From NCBI GenBank assembly GCA_009992235.1, contig JAACVZ010000001.1:197465-261464 (forward strand): a stretch of 64,000 nt of DNA. The letters are read 5' to 3'. The DNA is from Candidatus Saccharimonadota bacterium (lineage in GTDB: Bacteria; Patescibacteriota; Saccharimonadia; Saccharimonadales; Saccharimonadaceae). A program made the translations under genes and the position numbers. A model generated the notes under the pieces. It was not told the origin of the DNA, did not search any database, and saw only the letters and a program-made list of their open reading frames with translations. Positions 1,237 to 61,595 of the stretch are shown piece by piece (position 1 is the stretch's first letter; each line of letters starts with the position of its first letter).

Positions 1237-3534
1237 ATGACGGAAAAAACCAACACTAAACGAATAACCGACCCACTACTTGTAACGTATAAGAAATACC
1301 TTCCGAAGACCCAAAAACGAGACGGCCGGACGGTTAGGTTTAATTTCGAAAACATCGTCAATGCTATCGCGAAGGCAATGAAGGAGACGAATGAAGGAAG
1401 CACCGAAGAGGCGCGCGTTGTTGCTCACAAGGTTGCCGGTGAACTGATGGTAACAGCAAAGAAGTATAAAGACTTTACGCCAAACGTAGAGGCTATTCAG
1501 GATGAAGTTGAACGCCAGCTGATGCTTACTGATTACACGCAAGCCGCCAAGGCCTACATTCTATACCGAGAGGAGCATGCTCGAATTCGCGCCCAAGATG
1601 CAACTATCCCGCAGCACATTAAAGACGCCGTGGAAGAAGGTAGCCAGTATTTCAAATCGTCATACCAAGAGTTCATCTTTTACCAATTCTATGCTCGTTG
1701 GGATGACACGCTTGGTCGACGCGAGACATGGGTTGAGGCAATTGATCGATTCATGGGATATATGCGAGGTAAGCTTGGAGAATCACTGACAGAAGAAGAA
1801 TATAACGAGGTGCGCGAAGGAATACTCAAACATGAAGTATCACCCTCTATGAGGCTACTTTGGTCCGCCGGGGATGCTGTTGAGGCTACTAACGTCTGCG
1901 CCTACAACTGTGCGTATATTGCACCGACAAGTTGGCAGGATTTGTCCGAAATAATGTACGTCTCAATGTGTGGAGCTGGTTGTGGCTTTGCTGTTGAGCC
2001 AGAAAACGTCGAGCAATTCCCGCAAATCAAGAAGCAAAATGGAAAAATGAAGCCACCTATTATTGTTGAGGATGACAAAGAAGGCTGGTGTAGTGCATTT
2101 GTCGAGGCGTGCGAGGCGTGGGCTGAGGGATACGACGTTGATATCAACTATACACTTCTCCGCCCTGCAGGTGCTCGACTTCACACGATGGGAGGCCGTT
2201 CATCGGGTCCTGAGCCACTTCAGAATCTTATGCAGTTCACTCGTCGCAAAATGCTATCACGTCAGGGGCGTCGTCTTAGCACGCTTGACCTTCACGACAT
2301 CATTTGCCAGATTGGCTTGATTGTTGTTGCTGGTGGCGTACGCCGCTCGGCGCTCATTTCTCTATCATCACTTGATGATGTTGCTATGCGAGACGCGAAA
2401 AAGGGTGCCTTCTGGCAAACCGAAGGACAGCGCTCTATGGCCAATAACTCCGCCGTGTATGAGACAAAGCCATCGACCGCGGAAATGCTTGAAGAATGGA
2501 CGGCGCTTATTACTTCCGGAACCGGTGAACGCGGCATATTCAACCGCGGTGGTTTCGAAAAGCAATTCCCAGAACGTCGCTGGAAGCTAAACAAAGATCA
2601 ACAGCAGATGGGTGTTAATCCGTGTGGTGAAATATACCTTCGCTCGAAACAGTTCTGCAACTTATCGTCAATTGTGGTTCGCCCAGATGACACTATGAAG
2701 GACCTTAAGCGCAAAGTTCGCGTCGCAACACTTATTGGTACCTATCAGGCAACGCTGACCGATTTCGGCTATCTCGACAAAGCCTGGAAAGACAACTGTG
2801 AGGCCGAACAATTACTTGGGGTTTCTATTACCGGTTATTACGACAATGAAATTGTTCGAAATGACAAAAACCTAGCAGAGCTTCGCGATGATGCTGTGAA
2901 GGCTAATAAATTCTACGCCAAAAAGCTTGGACGACCTCAATCGACTGCAGTAACCTGTGTGAAACCACACGGTAATTCCGGGCAACTACTCGGAGTCGGT
3001 TCGGGTATGCACCCATGGTTCTCTGAATACTACATTCGTCGCGTTAGGATTAGCGCAAATGACCCACTTCTTAAACTTGCGCGTGACCAAGGTGTTCCCG
3101 TGTACCCTGAAGTCGGCTATTCAACTTCTACGGCGACAACAATGGTTCTTGAGTTCCCAATGAAAGCGCCTGACGGAGCAATTACCGCGAAAGATGTAAC
3201 CGCCCTTGAGATGCTTGAAGAGTGGCGACGGCTGAAGGTTAACTTTACTGAACATAACCCATCGGTGACAATTTATGTCGGTGAGGATGAGTGGATTGGT
3301 GTTATGGACTTCGTTTTCAAGAACTGGGACATTATCGGCGGACTATCGTTCTTGCCACGAAATGACCACGTCTACCAACTTGCTCCATATGAAGAAATAA
3401 CCAAGCAAGAATTCGAACAACGTTCAAGGGCTCTAGGCAAAATCGACTTTTCTAAACTATACATTCATGAACAAGAAGATCAGACTACTGGCGCCAAAGA
3501 GCTTGCCTGTGGCGGCGGCGTCTGCGAGCAATAA
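1237..3534 (+). CDS. nrdJ: Adenosylcobalamin-dependent (class II) ribonucleotide reductase
   Basis: It reduces ribonucleotides to deoxyribonucleotides using a thiyl radical generated from adenosylcobalamin, so no oxygen or iron-radical subunit is needed. An ATP-cone (about residues 20-110) precedes the catalytic barrel. NPCGE places the radical cysteine at C463, and C221 and C474 form the active-site redox pair. The C463/C474 spacing of 11 equals that of the Lactobacillus leichmannii monomeric enzyme (C408/C419). The C-terminal tail CGGGVC (C758/C763) is the swinging dithiol. Length (765 aa) fits this monomeric ribonucleoside-triphosphate reductase class. The ATG follows GAGGGAG (1225-1231). 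The cobalamin adenosyltransferase follows directly, supplying the cofactor, and a CRP-type operator lies upstream. Confidence 0.96.
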   Translation: MTEKTNTKRITDPLLVTYKKYLPKTQKRDGRTVRFNFENIVNAIAKAMKETNEGSTEEARVVAHKVAGELMVTAKKYKDFTPNVEAIQDEVERQLMLTDYTQAAKAYILYREEHARIRAQDATIPQHIKDAVEEGSQYFKSSYQEFIFYQFYARWDDTLGRRETWVEAIDRFMGYMRGKLGESLTEEEYNEVREGILKHEVSPSMRLLWSAGDAVEATNVCAYNCAYIAPTSWQDLSEIMYVSMCGAGCGFAVEPENVEQFPQIKKQNGKMKPPIIVEDDKEGWCSAFVEACEAWAEGYDVDINYTLLRPAGARLHTMGGRSSGPEPLQNLMQFTRRKMLSRQGRRLSTLDLHDIICQIGLIVVAGGVRRSALISLSSLDDVAMRDAKKGAFWQTEGQRSMANNSAVYETKPSTAEMLEEWTALITSGTGERGIFNRGGFEKQFPERRWKLNKDQQQMGVNPCGEIYLRSKQFCNLSSIVVRPDDTMKDLKRKVRVATLIGTYQATLTDFGYLDKAWKDNCEAEQLLGVSITGYYDNEIVRNDKNLAELRDDAVKANKFYAKKLGRPQSTAVTCVKPHGNSGQLLGVGSGMHPWFSEYYIRRVRISANDPLLKLARDQGVPVYPEVGYSTSTATTMVLEFPMKAPDGAITAKDVTALEMLEEWRRLKVNFTEHNPSVTIYVGEDEWIGVMDFVFKNWDIIGGLSFLPRNDHVYQLAPYEEITKQEFEQRSRALGKIDFSKLYIHEQEDQTTGAKELACGGGVCEQ

Positions 3535-3535
3535 A

Positions 3536-4087
3536 GTGAGCGGTCAATCACCCGTAATCGCTTACACCGGTGACGGGAAAGGCAAAACGAGCGCCGGTAT
3601 TGGCCTGGTGTGCCGAGCGCTTGGTGCTGGAAAGAAGGTTGCTTTCATACAGTTCATAAAACAGTGGCGCGTTAGTGAAGACGAGTTTTTCGACGCTGTC
3701 GCGCCTGTCTTTGGCGAGAACTTGACCTTATATAAGGGTGGGCTTGGCTTTTTTGAGGCTGGTGCAATGAGCGCAAAGGGTGTCAGTAAGGCCGAGCACG
3801 TCACCATGGCACGCAAAACCTACGACTACGTACTCCGTGAGGCTGTGAGTGGCGACTATGACGTTATCGTGTGCGACGAGATAAACAACGCCGTGCATGA
3901 CGGTCTATTGAGTATTCGGGATATAGATGAGCTTATAGAAAAGCGGAGTTCAAAGACGACACTCTGCTTAACTGGTCGCAACTTTCCTGCCAAGCTCAAG
4001 GCTAAAGCGGACATTATTTCGGACATCCAGAAAGTTAAACACCACTACGACGATGGGGCTATCGCACAGAAAGGTCTGGACTACTAA
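3536..4087 (+). CDS. cobO: Cob(I)alamin adenosyltransferase, CobA/CobO type
   Basis: It transfers the adenosyl group of ATP to cob(I)alamin, making the cofactor of the adjacent reductase. It has the P-loop TGDGKGKTSA near the N-terminus, and VIVCDEINNA and CLTGRNFP as in the CobA/BtuR/CobO family; length is about 183 aa. I chose the GTG two bases after the reductase TAA, because the open frame upstream (ATG at 3467) lies inside nrdJ and would add a low-complexity tail. Translation is probably coupled to nrdJ. No de novo corrin pathway genes are nearby, so it most likely serves salvaged B12. Confidence 0.93.
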   Translation: MSGQSPVIAYTGDGKGKTSAGIGLVCRALGAGKKVAFIQFIKQWRVSEDEFFDAVAPVFGENLTLYKGGLGFFEAGAMSAKGVSKAEHVTMARKTYDYVLREAVSGDYDVIVCDEINNAVHDGLLSIRDIDELIEKRSSKTTLCLTGRNFPAKLKAKADIISDIQKVKHHYDDGAIAQKGLDY

Positions 4088-6765: not shown

Positions 6766-7083
6766 GTGTCGCACTTCTTCTACCTATTTGCACTACTGCT
6801 CTCGCTAGGAGGACTAGTAGCCCTAGACTTCTATTTTAAGGTTGCCCTTGGTGCAGACTGGCGACGCGGGCTAAAAGTGCTCGGCACCGCGCTTGCGCTG
6901 TTTCTTGTGTGGGATCTTATAATTGTCGCCTTCGGTGTCGTAGAGAATGGCTCAAGCCCTTATTCGCTTCCCTTTACGATTCTGCCAGAGATACCGGTTG
7001 AAGAGGCGCTGTTTCTTGTTCTGCTTTCATACTGCACGCTACTGGTCTACGCGGAGGCCCCACGATGGCGACGTATGCGATAA
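6766..7083 (+). CDS. crtYc: Lycopene cyclase domain protein, subunit c (CrtYc-like)
   Basis: A 105-residue three-helix membrane protein whose PEIPVEEALF sequence matches the P-x-E-E-x-x-F signature of the CarR/CrtYc/CrtYd lycopene cyclase domain. In this family two such small subunits act together to close the beta rings of lycopene. The start is GTG at 6766; a possible -10 (TAAAAT, 6752-6757) is very near, so the transcript may be leaderless. The last 19 bp overlap the second subunit. No phytoene synthase or desaturase gene is in the window. Confidence 0.87.
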   Translation: MSHFFYLFALLLSLGGLVALDFYFKVALGADWRRGLKVLGTALALFLVWDLIIVAFGVVENGSSPYSLPFTILPEIPVEEALFLVLLSYCTLLVYAEAPRWRRMR

Positions 7084-7361
7084 TTGGATTCGTATACATT
7101 GTACTGGCTATAGCTGCGGGCAGGCTGTACAGAATAAAACACAGGCGCGCGGCACTTGCTGCCTTTATAGTCGTTGCTATAATGACGCTCCATTTTGAAC
7201 CAATTATGATTCATCTTGGGCTGTATCAGCACGACGCTACTAAATTACTCGGACCAGAAATCCGCAGTATACCAATTGAAGATTTCCTCTACGTATTGTT
7301 TGCGGCAATTGCCGTGCCGAGTTTGTGGGATAGGTTTTCGGAGACAAGAAGCCGCAATTAA
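7065..7361 (+). CDS. crtYd: Lycopene cyclase domain protein, subunit d (CrtYd-like)
   Basis: A 98-residue membrane protein with three hydrophobic helices. RSIPIEDFLYVLF is the second-subunit form of the cyclase motif (G/S-IPIED-x-x-F/Y), preceded by the FEPIMIHLGLYQ loop. It overlaps crtYc, which strongly suggests stoichiometric synthesis of a heterodimeric lycopene beta-cyclase. The expected product is beta-carotene, which could be an end product or a retinal precursor. A terminator follows within 6 bp. Confidence 0.87.
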   Translation: MATYAIIGFVYIVLAIAAGRLYRIKHRRAALAAFIVVAIMTLHFEPIMIHLGLYQHDATKLLGPEIRSIPIEDFLYVLFAAIAVPSLWDRFSETRSRN

Positions 7362-8282: not shown

Positions 8283-8822
8283 TCAGAACCTTTCGAGTTT
8301 GATGTTCTGAAATATAAGTCCGTTTTCTTCTGCATATGGGGCACCGTCTTTTGCGAATCCTAGGTCGCTAGTGACTCTTGCAATAACATCATTACTCGTT
8401 AGATGTCGACTGTATATTACGTTAGTATGAAATTCTGTGAACGCGTAGTTAATCATGGCTTCCATCACTAGCTTACCTGTCCCCATTCCGCGGGAATCTG
8501 GGTTACCAATCATGATATGTAATGCGGGTGCATTTACGTACTTTGTATCTTCGAGTTCAATCCAAACAGCACCTATTGTCCTGCCTTTCAATTGAATCAT
8601 TCGAGTAATTTGTTTGTTTTATCTTTCAAGTTGAATGAATTCTTCGAGAGTTTTCTTTTCACCCTCAAGGCTGGGCTTCTTAATTTCACTTTCTGAATTA
8701 CCCATTTTTAGTAATGTATCTTTTCCGTATGGCGAATCAAACCATGCCAGAGCAAAATAGGCGTCCCTGTCGGGGTCTGGCGGAACCAGTTCAAGATCGG
8801 GCGATACTTTAATAGTGTTCAT
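8283..8822 (-). pseudogene. GNAT-family N-acetyltransferase split by an in-frame TAA
   Basis: Two pieces lie in one reading frame. The first half starts at ATG 8822 and runs to EEFIQLER, followed by TAA (8619-8621). After the stop the same frame continues as NKQITRMIQLKGRTIGAVW and on through the acetyl-CoA-binding region (PDSRGMGTGKLVMEAM, the R/Q-x-x-G-x-G/A loop). Joined, they make one normal-length acetyltransferase of about 178 residues with nothing missing, so a single substitution (for example GAA or AAA to TAA) inactivated it. The downstream part could still start at ATG 8600 but would lack the first strands. Confidence 0.8.
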
Positions 8823-8987
8823 TAACTCAATAGTATCAGAAAAACAAACGACCTCTGAATTAACAGAGTTGAAAATGCTTATGTCAGGGGCTAAAGGACG
8901 ATTATCAAACCTCGTTCTACAAAGCCTTCCAGTGTGACTTAGAGAAATCACAGTCTCCGCTTAGTAATAAAGGTTACTAATTTGTAC

Positions 8988-8997: not shown

Positions 8998-9855
8998 ATG
9001 ATGAATAAATTTCAAAAATTCGAATATTCTAATGACGACCGAGGCGTGACGCCATTCGAGACTTTTCAACGATACAGCAATGAAAAACAACAAACATCGA
9101 TAAAGATAGCGGAAATTATTAACTCCTTTCGTACACATCCCGTATCGCTACTAGACGTTGGCGCCGGAGATGGATTATTGACACAACTATATTTATCGAA
9201 AATAGAATCGGTCCCGCAAAAAATTACACTGATTGAACCTAGCGTTGATTTAATTAACAAATTACGATTAAATCTATCGCAATTTGACGGTTTGTCTACT
9301 ATCAATATTTTAAATGAGCGCTTCCAGGAATATGCAACCGACCAAAAATTTGATGTTATTATCGCGTCGCATGTACCATTTACAGGTGATACCGGCATGG
9401 AGACATTGCCCAGTATATATATGAAGCTGCTTAGCTTGCTTGATTACAATGGCGTGTTAATTCTAATCCAAAGAGCTAATGATGATATTCATAGCTTTAG
9501 AGAAAAATTCAAATCAATTTTGAATGGTCGTATATATAATTCGTATGCAATTAACGATGCCCAGAATGTTTTCGGTAATGTCGTAGCCGACGATCCACTG
9601 AATCATATTACAATTTATCACGCCTCTTCCGAGTTATTATTCCCCAAGGATAACCAACACGATAGAATCGCCATTATTGAGTTCTTGCTAAATACCAAAT
9701 GGAATCAGATTCAAAGGGATGTTAAGGCGCAAATAAATGATTATTTAGCAGTTAGGAATAACAGGCTAGGTCAATCGGATGGCATATTAGTTTTTTCCCA
9801 AGAAATTGAAAACCCGCCCCCTAATAGAGAGGGCGGGGTTTCAGAAAGAAGTTAG
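8998..9855 (+). CDS. Class I SAM-dependent methyltransferase
   Basis: The Rossmann motif I is SLLDVGAGDGLL (about residues 49-60), with the acidic end of strand 2 at LIEPS and motif IV-like DVIIASHVPF. The substrate is unknown. The tandem ATG at 9001 is the likelier start if the mRNA is leaderless. The gene is AT-rich compared with its neighbours. Its last 14 codons run through the hairpin that terminates the opposing operon (NPPPNREGG is encoded by the stem), and it overlaps the radical SAM gene tail-to-tail by 15 bp. The natural C-terminus was probably altered when the operon arrived. Confidence 0.85.
   Translation: MMNKFQKFEYSNDDRGVTPFETFQRYSNEKQQTSIKIAEIINSFRTHPVSLLDVGAGDGLLTQLYLSKIESVPQKITLIEPSVDLINKLRLNLSQFDGLSTINILNERFQEYATDQKFDVIIASHVPFTGDTGMETLPSIYMKLLSLLDYNGVLILIQRANDDIHSFREKFKSILNGRIYNSYAINDAQNVFGNVVADDPLNHITIYHASSELLFPKDNQHDRIAIIEFLLNTKWNQIQRDVKAQINDYLAVRNNRLGQSDGILVFSQEIENPPPNREGGVSERS
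9811..9840 (-). terminator. Terminator of the radical SAM operon, inside the opposing gene
   Basis: CCCGCCC (9813-9819) pairs with GGGCGGG (9831-9837). On the minus strand the hairpin directly follows the radical SAM stop and is trailed by TTTTC. It lies within the plus-strand methyltransferase frame. Confidence 0.8.
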
Positions 9856-10953
9856 CGGCTCAGGAAAGCGGCATCCGAAGAGTTCTTCGTCTGCGAACTT
9901 CAGGAACCACAGCCCACGATAGTTCTCCCAGACAAGAGGCCGCATGTCGGTATCTTGGAAAATTCCCTCGATTCTCTTGCGTGCTTCGAGGTAGTAGTCC
10001 AGCTTATCGGCACCCTCGGCCACCAGTCCCGCATCCATCTGCTGGCGGTGAACTTGCAGCGTGTTGATGGTCGGGAACTTGCTGATGGAACCCTTGAATT
10101 CAGCAAGGTATTTCTCGACCACGTCCAGGGTCTCCAGACCAAGTACGTACGCGATGGACGCACTGAAACCGAGCTCCTTCGCAGTCTCAAGCGTCTCCTT
10201 AATCTGTGCTAGACCAATTGATCGCTTGTTGCGACGCAGGATGTCACGCCTCTCGAACACTTCGACCGAGAAGGTCAGTCCGAACGACCCGATATCACGC
10301 AAACGCTCCAGCGCGTCGGGTGTAGAAAGCTGGGATCCAAGATAAAAAATCTTACCCTTGAACCCATAACCCGTCGCACTTGTCCTCAGGTTGATGAGAG
10401 CCGCGATCAATTCGTCTGTCATCAGGTAGCACCCAGTAACCACCGACAGCTGCCGTATGCCCGCAAGGTCAGTCAGCGAGTACTTGATCATGAAGCCGTC
10501 GAAGAAGTTATTGAAATCTTCGACGGAATTCAGACGATACTCGCCATTTGACACCTGGTAGGCGGTATAGCAGAACTTGCATCCTCGGCAATTGGTACGA
10601 AGGTTCGTGTTGATGTTGATCGCCGTAGCATTCCTCCGCACATAGTGCGAGCTGCATTGGTCCTCGGTTGCGCCGAACGTTTCGCCGATCTTGGTAGTGC
10701 CGAGGAATAGCTGGTTGCCACGGATCTTGAAAGGACTATTTCGATGTACTGGCATAGCCAAGTAATAATCGAGGTCTCCCTTCTTGGTCGCGTACTCGAA
10801 CAACGTGTTGTTGTTGAGACGGAGCAGTGTTCGCATACGATCGTAACCGCATTCGAAATCCACTCCGTTAACGTTGAACGATACGAGCAACGCATCCTCG
10901 AACGGAACGTCGTACTTCAATGCCATGTCCTGTATGGAGCGAACGCTGGTCAT
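9841..10953 (-). CDS. Radical SAM enzyme with unusual CX2CX2C cluster motif
   Basis: C122, C125 and C128 in NCRGCKFCY should ligate the 4Fe-4S cluster that cleaves S-adenosylmethionine. The spacing CX2CX2C differs from the usual CX3CX2C. Downstream segments fit a radical SAM TIM barrel: VVTGCY (SAM-contact strand), FGLTFSVEVFERRD and ASIAYVLGLE. No cobalamin-binding or SPASM domain is evident. The C-terminus ends near GCRFPEPLTSF. It is the last gene of a four-gene operon (16 bp after the methyltransferase) with a split TPP-dependent decarboxylase. The product is unknown; a modified small-molecule phosphonate or sulfonate is one possibility (inference). GC content is visibly higher than in the AT-rich genes to its left. 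Confidence 0.85.
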   Translation of the reverse strand: MTSVRSIQDMALKYDVPFEDALLVSFNVNGVDFECGYDRMRTLLRLNNNTLFEYATKKGDLDYYLAMPVHRNSPFKIRGNQLFLGTTKIGETFGATEDQCSSHYVRRNATAININTNLRTNCRGCKFCYTAYQVSNGEYRLNSVEDFNNFFDGFMIKYSLTDLAGIRQLSVVTGCYLMTDELIAALINLRTSATGYGFKGKIFYLGSQLSTPDALERLRDIGSFGLTFSVEVFERRDILRRNKRSIGLAQIKETLETAKELGFSASIAYVLGLETLDVVEKYLAEFKGSISKFPTINTLQVHRQQMDAGLVAEGADKLDYYLEARKRIEGIFQDTDMRPLVWENYRGLWFLKFADEELFGCRFPEPLTSF

Positions 10954-10969
10954 TCATACCACTTCCTAT

Positions 10970-11800
10970 CTAGTTGCCTGTGATCTGTTGCAGAAAATCA
11001 TTTCGCCTGCGACAGATGATGACTGTGGACAGAACCGGTACCGTTACCTGACCGTGCGCCTTGACGACTTCAGCGATCCGGCGAAGGAGAGCCTCACGGC
11101 GCCCGTCTTCGATATTGATGATCTTCGGATAGGTCGCCAGGAACTTCGGGTAGGTCACTTCGTCGTAGGTGTACCTGACCAAGTACCTGTTCAAGAACAC
11201 CGTCTCGAGCTCCGGGTTGGTCATGATGGCGTTGATACGGCCATCAACCTTGTCGAGGGCAATCTTGTTCACGGCGTCCGTGTCGTTGTTGCCCGGGTAG
11301 ATGTCTTGCAGGTCTTCTCGATAGACCTTCTCGATCTCGTCGGTCACCACTGATTGCTGTTGCATGAAACTGTTCCACGCAACAACCAGCGTTCCATTCA
11401 CGTCCAGCATCTCACCGACGCGACGAATCGTGTCGGAACCGCTGAGCCAATGGAACGAAGTGAACGAGAGAATTGAGCCGAACTTGTGTTCGCTGGTGAA
11501 GTTCTCGAAGGTATCAACGAGAACCTCCACGTTTGGGAAATCCTTCAGCTGAGCTTCGGCAATCTTTGCCAAGTTCTCACCAGGCTCAAGTGCGACAATC
11601 TTGCTGCCGCTAGCAGCCAACTCGATAGTGGCGATACCACTCCCGGCGCCAATCTCCAACAATGTCGATTGGTCGGAAATACCGCACACCCTGACGATGT
11701 CAGCCATCATCTCGTCCGGATAACCGGGGCGAGCCGACTGATAGTTGTCTGCGAACGTATCGAACGAGGCGTTAAACAACTTCTCTCCTCTGAACATCAT
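10970..11800 (-). CDS. Class I SAM-dependent methyltransferase (UbiE-like)
   Basis: The N-terminal FDTFADNYQSARPGYP segment and motif I LLEIGAGSGIAT, then VALEPGENL and SFTSFHWL, are typical of small-molecule methyltransferases related to UbiE/trans-aconitate methyltransferase. I chose ATG 11800 because it forms an ATGA overlap with the upstream decarboxylase stop and has AAAGGA eight bases upstream; an ATG at 11809 is possible. Tight coupling in the operon suggests it methylates the pathway intermediate or product. Confidence 0.85.
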   Translation of the reverse strand: MMFRGEKLFNASFDTFADNYQSARPGYPDEMMADIVRVCGISDQSTLLEIGAGSGIATIELAASGSKIVALEPGENLAKIAEAQLKDFPNVEVLVDTFENFTSEHKFGSILSFTSFHWLSGSDTIRRVGEMLDVNGTLVVAWNSFMQQQSVVTDEIEKVYREDLQDIYPGNNDTDAVNKIALDKVDGRINAIMTNPELETVFLNRYLVRYTYDEVTYPKFLATYPKIINIEDGRREALLRRIAEVVKAHGQVTVPVLSTVIICRRRNDFLQQITGN

Positions 11801-12357
11801 GATGGCCATCCTTTCAGGTGTCGTGTGAATCGATCTTTGATACTTACTAGATCGAGAGGTCTGCTAAAATCTCGTCGTCCGCCGAGTGTAATTTTGGTGA
11901 CGATAAAACCTAACCTTCCTTCTGACTCCAATATAGCATGCTTCAACGAGGACTCATCGAAGACCGTTAGTGAACTTGCGTAGTTTGCTGTGGCGGCAAG
12001 TTTACTAAGAGATACCGAGCCAGACATAGACTCTTCCTCACTGCATGACCCATACGACTCGTTGTCGATGACGATATGCAGGAGATTACGAGGTTGACAC
12101 TTTCCGATTGTGACAAGAGTTCCCAAGTTCATAAGGAGACTCGAATCGCCATCAATCACGATAACCCTTCGGTCTGAACCTAAGGCGATACCGAGTCCGA
12201 TCGAAGAAACCAACCCCATAGCACCAGGGTTATAGAAGTTTCTTGCCGAATCGAACTTCTCGAATATCTCTCTCGATATTAGCCCGGTCGTAGCAACGAC
12301 AATGTCATCTTTATCGATGACGTCCATAATCGCAGCTATAGCACTCTCTCTGTTCAT
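11797..12357 (-). CDS. Phosphonopyruvate/sulfopyruvate decarboxylase-like beta subunit (TPP domain)
   Basis: It matches the C-terminal thiamine-diphosphate-binding half of phosphonopyruvate decarboxylase (Ppd) and the ComE subunit of sulfopyruvate decarboxylase. Visible parts are VVATTGLISREIFE, GAMGLVSSIGLGIALG, VIDGDSSLLMNLG, then NLLHIVIDNESYGS. The GDG-x~27-NN TPP motif appears here as GDS and DN, a mild variant. The partner PYR-domain subunit is encoded just upstream, with its TGA overlapping this ATG (ATGA); that overlap decided the start. Together they should form an alpha/beta 2-oxo-acid decarboxylase that yields an aldehyde and CO2. The true substrate is unknown, and no PEP mutase or sulfolactate gene is nearby. 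Confidence 0.85.
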   Translation of the reverse strand: MNRESAIAAIMDVIDKDDIVVATTGLISREIFEKFDSARNFYNPGAMGLVSSIGLGIALGSDRRVIVIDGDSSLLMNLGTLVTIGKCQPRNLLHIVIDNESYGSCSEEESMSGSVSLSKLAATANYASSLTVFDESSLKHAILESEGRLGFIVTKITLGGRRDFSRPLDLVSIKDRFTRHLKGWPS

Positions 12358-12890
12358 GTCTTGTCCCACCCCCTCTTCAGCAGTAGTACTGCTGGCAGTT
12401 GAGCATCTTCTGCTCTCCTATACAAATTTCGCACCACATCGTAGATATCGTTATCTTGTTCGAATACCACGTATGGTATCCCAAAAGACTCCAGTAGTGG
12501 CATGGTCGCTTTGCCGTTCACAAAATGTTGTGGAGCATCCTCACCCTCACACCCGCGAAGTGACACTATTAATACAAGTGGCATTCGATATGGTATCAGG
12601 AGTGATGAGATGTCGTTCGAAGCAGTGAACAAACCAGAGTTTTGTATGTATATAACAGGCTTCTTTCCCGCCAAGTATGCGCCTGCGGCCACCCCAATCG
12701 CTTCCGGTTCACGATTAACCGTGATGTGCATGATGCGTTCATCGTGTGCCAAAAAATCGATGACACGACGAAGTACTCCACATGGGACACCGACGGAAAA
12801 ATCAATTCCTTCCTCGATTAGGGCTTGCCGTAACTTACCCGCTACAGAAGAATGGGGCTTTTCCAGGTTATTGAAATGACTGTTGTTCAT
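12354..12890 (-). CDS. Phosphonopyruvate/sulfopyruvate decarboxylase-like alpha subunit (PYR domain)
   Basis: This is the N-terminal pyrimidine-binding half of a Ppd/ComD-type enzyme. FSVGVPCG is followed by NREPEAIGVAAGAYLAG, holding the glutamate that activates TPP, then PVIYIQNSG, the PYRMPLVLIVSLRG strand and DAPQH, all family signatures. ATG 12890 follows AGAAAGAAG; an open frame upstream to 12971 would run through the leader hairpins and was not used. It is first in the operon and shares an ATGA overlap with the beta subunit. Confidence 0.87.
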   Translation of the reverse strand: MNNSHFNNLEKPHSSVAGKLRQALIEEGIDFSVGVPCGVLRRVIDFLAHDERIMHITVNREPEAIGVAAGAYLAGKKPVIYIQNSGLFTASNDISSLLIPYRMPLVLIVSLRGCEGEDAPQHFVNGKATMPLLESFGIPYVVFEQDNDIYDVVRNLYRRAEDAQLPAVLLLKRGWDKT

Positions 12891-12915
12891 GAGCTTACTT
12901 CTTTCTGTAAATGTA

Positions 12916-12950
12916 CCTCCGCGTAAGGGGAGCGGAGGCTCGACCCCCGC
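12916..12950 (-). promoter_or_regulatory. Switch-like leader with two mutually exclusive hairpins
   Basis: In the 5' leader of the decarboxylase operon, the segment CCTCCGC (12932-12938) can pair either with the upstream GCGGGGG (12944-12950, loop TCGAG) or with the downstream GCGGAGG (12916-12922, 9-nt loop). Each stem has 7 bp. The arrangement resembles an attenuator or riboswitch expression platform. Neither hairpin is followed by a U-tract, so control may act on translation. Confidence 0.5.
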
Positions 12951-12961
12951 CAGATAAGTAA

Positions 12962-12990
12962 ATTCAAACACAGTTTTAATAATAAGTCAA
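12962..12990 (-). promoter_or_regulatory. Promoter of the split-decarboxylase operon
   Basis: The -35 TTGACT (12985-12990) and -10 TTGAAT (12962-12967) are 17 bp apart. The TSS would be near 12955, giving a leader of about 65 nt. Confidence 0.6.
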
Positions 12991-13373: not shown

Positions 13374-13702
13374 TAATCAGTTGGTTGTAAGCAATGATTC
13401 ACTTCTTCGTACATGGTCGCTTGAAGAGTGAGGAGCTAGTAGCGAAACCGGATAACCACTTACTCAATCGATGAGTATACGGTACCGACAACTGAGAAGG
13501 TAACGTAATCATCGCTTATGGCGATAAGGAGCTGTCATCATGCTTTTTGACACCCCATATTCTTTTCGTTCATTATTCCCTACACTCCCAAACTCAAACC
13601 GTGTGGAATAATGAAAGTACCTTTGGCAGCGCATAGGCGATCTCAACAATAGCCTGCTTGCCACAAAGAACGGTCGGAACTGCTCCGGCCGTTTCTATTT
13701 TA
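13374..13702 (+). ncRNA. Unassigned structured RNA, about 330 nt
   Basis: It is bounded by a near-consensus promoter and a strong terminator and has no credible ORF. Many helices are visible: a long-range pairing TCAGTTG with CAACTGA; ACTCA-atcga-TGAGT; ATCGC-ttatg-GCGAT; TGTCA with TGACA around 13530-13550; an 11-bp stem TTCATTATTCC/GGAATAATGAA (about 13571-13615) with inner ACAC/GTGT; and CTTTGGCA...TGCC..CAAAG enclosing AGGC/GCCT. I looked for the conserved cores of RNase P RNA (GAGGAAAGTCC, ACAGAA), tmRNA and 4.5S RNA and did not find them. 6S RNA is not excluded, but the length is large. Confidence 0.7.
13669..13702 (+). terminator. Terminator of the structured RNA
   Basis: AACGGTCGGA and TCCGGCCGTT form a 10-bp stem (one G-U pair) around ACTGC, followed by TCTATTTTAT. 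Confidence 0.88.
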
Positions 13703-60847: not shown

Positions 60848-60876
60848 ACTATAACAAAGCTGCTAACCTAGGACAA
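60848..60876 (-). promoter_or_regulatory. Leaderless promoter of tig
   Basis: TTGTCC (60871-60876), 17-bp spacer, TATAGT (60848-60853); seven bases to ATG and no SD. Confidence 0.75.
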
Positions 60877-61567
60877 CCGGAGGCTTCTCGCGATGCTTAT
60901 CTCTAAACATGCGTTCGTTAGCACGCATAAGCAGCTTACTTAATGGTTCGCCCTTAGAATCGGTCGTACTCATAATATCAATACCGACAGATAGTTTCAG
61001 TGCTTCGTGCAGCTTCTTTTTTACTTTTTCGAGCTCTTGTTCTGATAATTCGTCATCTTTAAGCTGCTCGAATGTGCTTCGAGCAATCGTCTCTACTATA
61101 TAATCGCGCAACCTATCTTCGTTTCCCTCGCCCCTAATCCTTAAGTCGCTAGGCACCTCTTCGTTGTCGCAATCTTTAGGAATTAGAACTGCAAACTCAT
61201 CACCATAAATACGAGATGTCGCTTCATCTTCACGATTAAATGCTGCGCCGATACCCCGTCCAACAAGACGCAATATTTCGTCAGCCCCCGCATGGCCATA
61301 GCGCGTGTTAATCTCTTTAAATTTGTCTAGGTCAATAAACACCAGGGCAAACGCTTCATCTGGGTGACTCTCTATAAATGAGTTGACGTGCTTCTCAAAA
61401 GCATCTCTATTCAATAGGCCGGTCATCGTATCAAAGTTACGCTCATTGAACATTCCTCGCGCCACCTCAACATATCGATCGACACCGTGCAGATCTTCAT
61501 CGCCAGCTATCCTGGTATTTCTCTCTATTGTGCCGAAAGATGGAACTTGTTTTCGTTCATTTGTCAT
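60863..61567 (-). CDS. GGDEF-domain protein with degenerate active site
   Basis: The diguanylate-cyclase fold is clear: DTMTGLLNRDAFEKHV, FIDLDKFKEINTRYGHAGADEIL with the metal-binding aspartate, and the signature loop. That loop reads RIYGDEF, so the first Gly of GGDEF is Tyr, which should hinder GTP binding. No sensory or membrane domain is attached. It may be a receptor or an enzyme with altered activity. Start ATG 61567; 234 aa. Confidence 0.88.
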   Translation of the reverse strand: MTNERKQVPSFGTIERNTRIAGDEDLHGVDRYVEVARGMFNERNFDTMTGLLNRDAFEKHVNSFIESHPDEAFALVFIDLDKFKEINTRYGHAGADEILRLVGRGIGAAFNREDEATSRIYGDEFAVLIPKDCDNEEVPSDLRIRGEGNEDRLRDYIVETIARSTFEQLKDDELSEQELEKVKKKLHEALKLSVGIDIMSTTDSKGEPLSKLLMRANERMFRDKHREKPPVVLG

Positions 61568-61595
61568 ATACAAATATTATTATAGTGTATACAAA

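Follow-up and report, generated by a model that had tools for sequence, protein, structure and literature searches.

What could a bacterium with a genome of 691 kb (96.7% complete) make with an operon that joins a split thiamine pyrophosphate (TPP) enzyme to a methyltransferase and a radical S-adenosylmethionine (SAM) enzyme? Such an operon is located on the minus strand at positions 9841-12890 of the window, i.e. the whole stretch of 64,000 nucleotides from Candidatus Saccharimonadota bacterium (assembly GCA_009992235.1, contig JAACVZ010000001.1, positions 197,465 to 261,464) that was analysed in this study. A previous description made from the letters of this stretch (referred to as the sequence-only reading) had likened the alpha and beta subunits of the TPP enzyme to phosphonopyruvate or sulfopyruvate decarboxylase, and had proposed a small undescribed pathway that decarboxylates a 2-oxo acid and then methylates and rearranges it. 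We find that the operon is real, conserved and undescribed, and that its radical SAM enzyme belongs to an unusual family. With a probability of about one half, we read it as a horizontally moving operon of four to five genes for a small molecule, which would be made through TPP chemistry, methylation and a radical step.

The four genes had been placed correctly by the sequence-only reading, with exact coordinates, and Pfam and NCBIfam agree with the protein families it had named. All four are tightly packed on the minus strand. The first encodes the alpha subunit, the N-terminal (PYR) half of the split TPP enzyme (12354-12890, 178 aa; NCBIfam), and the second the beta subunit, the C-terminal (PP) half (Pfam and NCBIfam), which spans 11797-12357 and 186 aa from an ATG, or 190 aa from a GTG at 12369. 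They are followed by the gene of a class I SAM-dependent methyltransferase, MT1 (10970-11800 from the conserved start, with an alternative ATG at 11809; PF13649/PF08241), and that of the radical SAM enzyme, a member of an uncharacterised family (9841-10953; PF04055) with a CX2CX2C motif at C122, C125 and C128. ATGA overlaps link alpha to beta (12357-12354) and beta to MT1 (11800-11797), and 16 nt separate MT1 from the radical SAM gene. The sequence-only reading had, however, overlooked the CX2CX2C motif and a second class I methyltransferase gene, MT2, on the plus strand at 8998-9855. MT2, identified by Pfam and by homologues at two other loci, is convergent with the radical SAM gene.

A genome-wide scan with an alignment of the radical SAM protein retrieved 13 loci, and a scan with the single protein none. 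The order alpha-beta-MT1-radical SAM recurs in four other Patescibacteria, namely in Saccharibacteria (L035, the nearest operon relative, labelled Candidatus Saccharibacteria), Komeilibacteria (L036), Patescibacteria REEB140 (L037) and Parcubacteria (L039, which is one locus with L023 and also with L010 of genome G152). The genes are thus linked in four distant genomes, and the possibility that they occur unlinked in all relatives falls away. Identity to the window across these four operons ranges from 39 to about 78% for the radical SAM protein, 44-78% for MT1, 55-78% for beta and about 50-66% for alpha. Because the order persists across genomes whose radical SAM proteins have diverged to this extent, the operon is a conserved unit, far beyond chance. 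MT2 homologues occur in two of the four operons, with 55% identity and in the same convergent position in L035, and with 41% identity in L036, where the gene directly follows the radical SAM gene in the same orientation; the unit comprises four or five genes. Between the window and L035, nonsynonymous differences per site (pN) in the four genes amount to 0.11-0.21 and synonymous differences (pS) to 0.63-0.75, with synonymous sites near saturation, and the low pN relative to pS indicates purifying selection on all four genes.

The flanking genes vary between the operon loci, and the operon occurs sporadically. Among 61 genomes (the own genome and relatives), the radical SAM gene was found in the own genome and, as a homologue with 31% identity, in one other, and a close beta subunit was present only in G152 among 287 genomes of the phylum. 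MT1 and the radical SAM gene have a GC content at third codon positions of 0.67-0.71, compared with 0.42-0.54 for the other long genes of the window. Both the patchy occurrence and this compositional shift are compatible with horizontal transfer, although they do not prove it. The sporadic distribution fits the horizontal acquisition that the sequence-only reading had considered possible; its remark that the operon is remarkable in a genome of this type has to be qualified, since the operon recurs across Patescibacteria. Two specific sources were rejected. An origin from an actinomycete host is contradicted by the grouping of the window's radical SAM gene with Clostridia and archaeal genes and not with those of actinomycete plasmids, and a phage origin by the lack of any phage match to the radical SAM protein and by only weak phage matches to alpha.

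The cysteine motif of the radical SAM protein is non-canonical and constitutes the most unusual feature of the locus. The protein matches PF04055 with 36.8 bits (cut-off 29.5) and no NCBIfam family, and its predicted structure, with a predicted local distance difference test (pLDDT) score of 84, comprises a radical SAM barrel and an extra N-terminal part of ~100 residues. All 20 distinct family members, which span Patescibacteria, Bacillota, Actinomycetota and two archaea, contain the motif CxGCxxC (CX2CX2C) after a conserved stretch rich in Asn and Arg, and none of the 20 has the canonical CX3CX2C anywhere. The superfamily accepts other non-canonical motifs, such as CX2CX4C in ThiC, CX5CX2C in HmdB, CX14CX2C in QueE and CX2CX21CX5C in PhnJ (PMC4389238). 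CX2CX2C is missing from this published list (PMC4389238), and no description of it was found in the open literature searched, the coverage of which was incomplete, so that a prior description is possible. As four of six further members tested were not matched by the Pfam Radical_SAM model at E 0.001, radical SAM enzymes of the CX2CX2C type are probably undercounted. An attempt to derive a function from the fold failed, because the structural matches were spread over many families with similar scores and no closest function emerged.

The alpha subunit of the TPP enzyme scored 130.6 bits against TIGR03845 (cut-off 147.95) and 115.9 bits against the phosphonopyruvate decarboxylase model TIGR03297 (cut-off 312.5), and the beta subunit 46 bits against PF02775, 145.4 bits against TIGR03846 (cut-off 221.5) and 153.7 bits against TIGR03297, a model that covers both halves and therefore puts a split enzyme at a disadvantage versus its cut-off of 312.5. 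In the other operons tested, alpha and beta likewise remained under the cut-offs for phosphonopyruvate and sulfopyruvate decarboxylase. As a control in the same test, ComE of Leisingera reached 244.5 bits and passed the beta cut-off, with 147.6 bits for its alpha subunit. In a tree with 15 relatives, the beta subunits of the five operons formed their own clade with a support of 100/100.

An alignment with these relatives separates what is conserved in the five operons from what has changed. The catalytic Glu61 of alpha is invariant, and Asp71 and Asn99 of beta are kept; we take these three to be the residues that activate TPP and bind its metal. In the L035 beta subunit, Asn99 is retained though the preceding Asp is replaced by Asn. 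The TPP motif of beta contains GDS or GDA in 5/5 operons versus GDG in 15/15 aligned relatives, the stretch after its DN reads SC[SN]EE in all five versus a STGGQ-like sequence ending in Q in all 15, and alpha has SGLFxASND in 5/5 operons versus an SGLG-type motif in the compared relatives. With the cofactor residues kept and the pocket stretches changed, the alignment indicates an intact TPP cofactor site and an altered presumed substrate side. The earlier suspicion that the altered GDS/DN motif might signify an inactive enzyme is not borne out, since all five operons retain the Asp and Asn that bind Mg, and Ser or Ala at the third position is a trait of the whole clade. A GDS motif also occurs in the working oxalyl-CoA decarboxylase.

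These observations bear on the possibility that the operon is a phosphonate or sulfonate fragment, in which alpha and beta form a working phosphonopyruvate or sulfopyruvate decarboxylase fed with the acid by a host or neighbouring cells, and MT1 methylates a phosphonate. The solved structures nearest by sequence are indeed RhiE for alpha (9iz3_A) and RhiF for beta (9iz3_B), which together constitute a phosphonopyruvate decarboxylase that acts in rhizocticin biosynthesis and has two subunits (PMC12141560), and the NCBIfam models of both decarboxylase families match with E 1e-33 or better. In addition, the top structural match of MT1, HvrF, was solved with pantaphos. Nevertheless, no operon tested reached any of the curated cut-offs, although Leisingera ComE did, and this argues against such a fragment, as do the different pocket motifs and two missing genes. 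PEP (phosphoenolpyruvate) mutase (PF13714) was detected neither in the own genome nor in eight genomes with related loci, and ComA (PF02679) in none of six genomes, while control genomes were positive in both searches. Several of the searched genomes are metagenome-assembled and of unstated completeness, so that a single absence is weak evidence; jointly, the absences are not. The absence of PEP mutase and coenzyme M genes, which the sequence-only reading had noted for the neighbourhood, therefore extends for PEP mutase to the rest of the own genome and to all operon genomes, and for ComA to all six genomes. Together with the altered pocket, it argues against both phosphonopyruvate and sulfopyruvate as the substrate. 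We regard a phosphonate or sulfonate pathway as unlikely and give the fragment explanation only a slim chance.

Further evidence comes from the other surroundings of the radical SAM gene. The tree of the family splits by gene context into the four-gene operons, a Clostridia genome, two archaea, six loci with a GrpB context and actinomycete plasmids, and each subclade keeps its own neighbours. In the Clostridia genome (L038), a gene for a 687-aa phosphoketolase-like enzyme is directly followed by MT1 (42% identity) and the radical SAM gene (43%), and no beta subunit was found in this genome. Six loci lie on actinomycete plasmids, one of which (L006) is without annotation; the five annotated ones (L001-L005, with L003 and L005 being near copies) hold phosphoketolase-like, methyltransferase, enolase-like and HAD genes. 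The phosphoketolase-like enzymes of L001-L004 and L038 have a common three-residue gap compared with a solved phosphoketolase, and the histidine of SIHEGGELGY is lost in 4/5 of them, which marks them as a modified subfamily. Hence, this radical SAM family and a methyltransferase are accompanied by two TPP enzymes that are unrelated to each other, which hints at a common intermediate and also speaks against the decarboxylases of phosphonate or sulfonate metabolism. The own genome encodes a full-length phosphoketolase elsewhere (802 aa frame), so the exchange of TPP enzymes is not exclusive at the genome level. We tentatively suggest, a shade short of even odds, that the radical SAM family is a new one that binds its iron-sulfur cluster through CX2CX2C and operates as a module with a methyltransferase and a TPP enzyme that can be exchanged, making an unknown class of metabolites across Patescibacteria, Bacillota, Actinomycetota and small-genome archaea.

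The exchange also touches on the kind of reaction at the TPP site. As in acetolactate synthase, alpha and beta might decarboxylate a 2-oxo acid and join the resulting unit to a second carbonyl, after which the radical SAM enzyme would rearrange the carbon skeleton. Phosphoketolases form an activated two-carbon unit on TPP, which the phosphoketolase-like partners at the other loci would share with such a carboligase, and the pocket changes suggest a changed reaction. There are matches to acetolactate synthase models, but these are weak (E about 1e-5), and the closest relatives of known function simply decarboxylate their substrates. We consider carboligation doubtful on balance.

Additional genes were observed in the other contexts of the family. 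In L042-L047 (gut Saccharibacteria, Nomurabacteria and Bacillota), the radical SAM gene is followed by a GrpB-like gene (Pfam-confirmed for L044), and in L043, L045 and L047 this pair is accompanied by a histidine phosphatase-like region; these loci represent a second context that is still uncharacterised. Small GGDEF-like proteins, mutually 38-48% identical, are encoded within the actinomycete clusters (L001 12819-13445, L002 12929-14092 and L004 9267-9983). A 150-aa protein is encoded upstream of the archaeal radical SAM genes (L040 160-609 and L041 262-705; 39% mutual identity), which has no Pfam match and by eye resembles diadenylate cyclase domains.

MT1, which is 42-78% identical across five other loci, yielded a predicted structure with a pLDDT of 83.5, and its top Foldseek match was HvrF (9e72, E 8e-16), the second-best match by sequence; trans-aconitate methyltransferases were also among the best. 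HvrF, encoded in the pantaphos cluster, is a putative O-methyltransferase that its authors likened to trans-aconitate methyltransferase (PMC7858074). This proximity of the model to HvrF and trans-aconitate methyltransferases weakly favours the methylation of a small acid by MT1. Other matches would fit an operon whose target is a macromolecule (for example tRNA, a peptide or the cell wall) and which makes no free small molecule: the N-terminal part of MT1 matches rRNA dimethylase models, MT2 weakly matches a phage tRNA methyltransferase family, and RNA and peptides are commonly modified by radical SAM enzymes. Such a role appears quite improbable to us, considering the small-acid methyltransferases among the best structural matches of MT1, a TPP partner, which suggests that a small 2-oxo acid or a sugar is involved, and the lack of a conserved short precursor gene in what was seen around the operons.

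In the pathway that we favour, alpha and beta may jointly build a single TPP active site. This site would attack a 2-oxo acid, release CO2 and either give an aldehyde or hand the activated unit on. MT1 would place a methyl group on an acidic oxygen of the intermediate. With a [4Fe-4S] cluster bound to CX2CX2C, the radical SAM enzyme would generate the 5'-deoxyadenosyl radical and shape the product by abstracting hydrogen, by a rearrangement or by a carbon-carbon step. MT2, where present, could add a second methyl group. TPP-bound carbanion chemistry on a 2-oxo acid and SAM-dependent methylation are likely parts of this scheme, and the radical hydrogen abstraction, with a rearrangement or the making of a carbon-carbon bond, is less certain. 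The outline given in the sequence-only reading is partly supported, and its small undescribed pathway remains the best reading.

Several points weigh against this scheme. The pLDDT of the radical SAM model drops below 50 at residues 120-124, exactly at the cysteine motif. The methyltransferases of the actinomycete clusters are only 15-19% identical to MT1, and we infer that they are its counterparts; class I methyltransferases are readily recruited. The best structural match of MT1 belongs to a phosphonate cluster, which leaves a phosphonate link slightly open, and no exporter or precursor gene marks the operon as a natural-product cluster. Ultrasmall Patescibacteria have lost most biosynthesis, and a dedicated pathway that is yet conserved suggests something worth keeping, perhaps with a role in dealings with hosts or rivals. 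The proposed chemistry is testable with four small proteins.

The operon is framed by short non-coding elements. Its leader (12891-12960, minus strand) contains a stem rich in GC and, for ribosome binding, a stretch rich in AG, and a similar leader precedes alpha in L035. A GTG at 12971 would extend the alpha reading frame into the leader and is not conserved. The leader had no Rfam match, and its predicted fold was not stronger than that of shuffled sequences (z -0.9), and a riboswitch or structured leader was rejected on these grounds. An intrinsic terminator with a stem of 10 pairs, eight of them GC, followed by TTTT is predicted after the radical SAM gene (9813-9837, minus strand), where L035 has a similar GC-rich stem and then T-rich sequence. 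An inverted repeat at the operon ends (9839-9856 and 12893-12910; 16/18 matching bases) has its sole two copies in the genome here; its arms coincide with the end of the radical SAM gene and with the ribosome-binding stretch, respectively. It was rejected as a sign of a mobile element, as only 13/18 bases match in L035 and matches elsewhere are at control level, and it probably reflects coincidence plus shared descent. A GNAT acetyltransferase gene adjoining MT2 (8283-8951, minus strand) is broken by an in-frame stop and is likely a pseudogene or the result of a sequence error.

Elsewhere in the window, a cyclic di-GMP-II riboswitch aptamer (RF01786, 59.3 bits versus a gathering score of 53.5) was detected at 13378-13462 on the plus strand, where it precedes an NADH dehydrogenase-like gene as well as glycogen-type glycosyl genes. 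The sole GGDEF-domain protein found in the genome is encoded in the same window (60863-61573, minus strand), and this one diguanylate cyclase may therefore serve the riboswitch. At 1237-4087 (plus strand), an ATP-cone protein with weak similarity to ribonucleotide reductase is followed by a corrinoid adenosyltransferase, which suggests a divergent B12-dependent reductase. Two overlapping small genes at 6766-7361 (plus strand) have weak matches to lycopene cyclase, a hint of carotenoid synthesis in a streamlined genome.

Among known systems, RhiEF (9iz3/9iz4) resembles the alpha/beta pair in being a split TPP enzyme with adjacent genes and the TPP residues in place, whereas the operon pair differs by its GDS/GDA, SCSEE and SGLFxASND motifs, its separate clade and its occurrence in genomes without PEP mutase. 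The sulfopyruvate decarboxylase ComDE has split subunits of the same size, and its models TIGR03845 and TIGR03846 match the operon pair, but below their cut-offs; the pocket motifs are different and ComA is absent from the genomes. HvrF and the trans-aconitate methyltransferases share only 14-19% identity with MT1 despite being among its best structural matches, and HvrF is part of a phosphonate cluster based on PEP mutase (PMC7858074), the enzyme that the operon genomes lack. Biotin synthase, lipoyl synthase and MqnE have the radical SAM barrel in common with the operon protein, which differs by CX2CX2C in place of CX3CX2C, its extra N-terminal part and identities of 12-20%. A parallel in composition is offered by the actinomycete plasmid clusters (L001-L005), in which the same radical SAM family and motif occur with a class I methyltransferase and an enzyme that uses TPP. 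Their TPP enzyme is, however, phosphoketolase-like, they contain additional enolase-like, HAD and sometimes GGDEF-like genes, and their radical SAM proteins form a separate clade.

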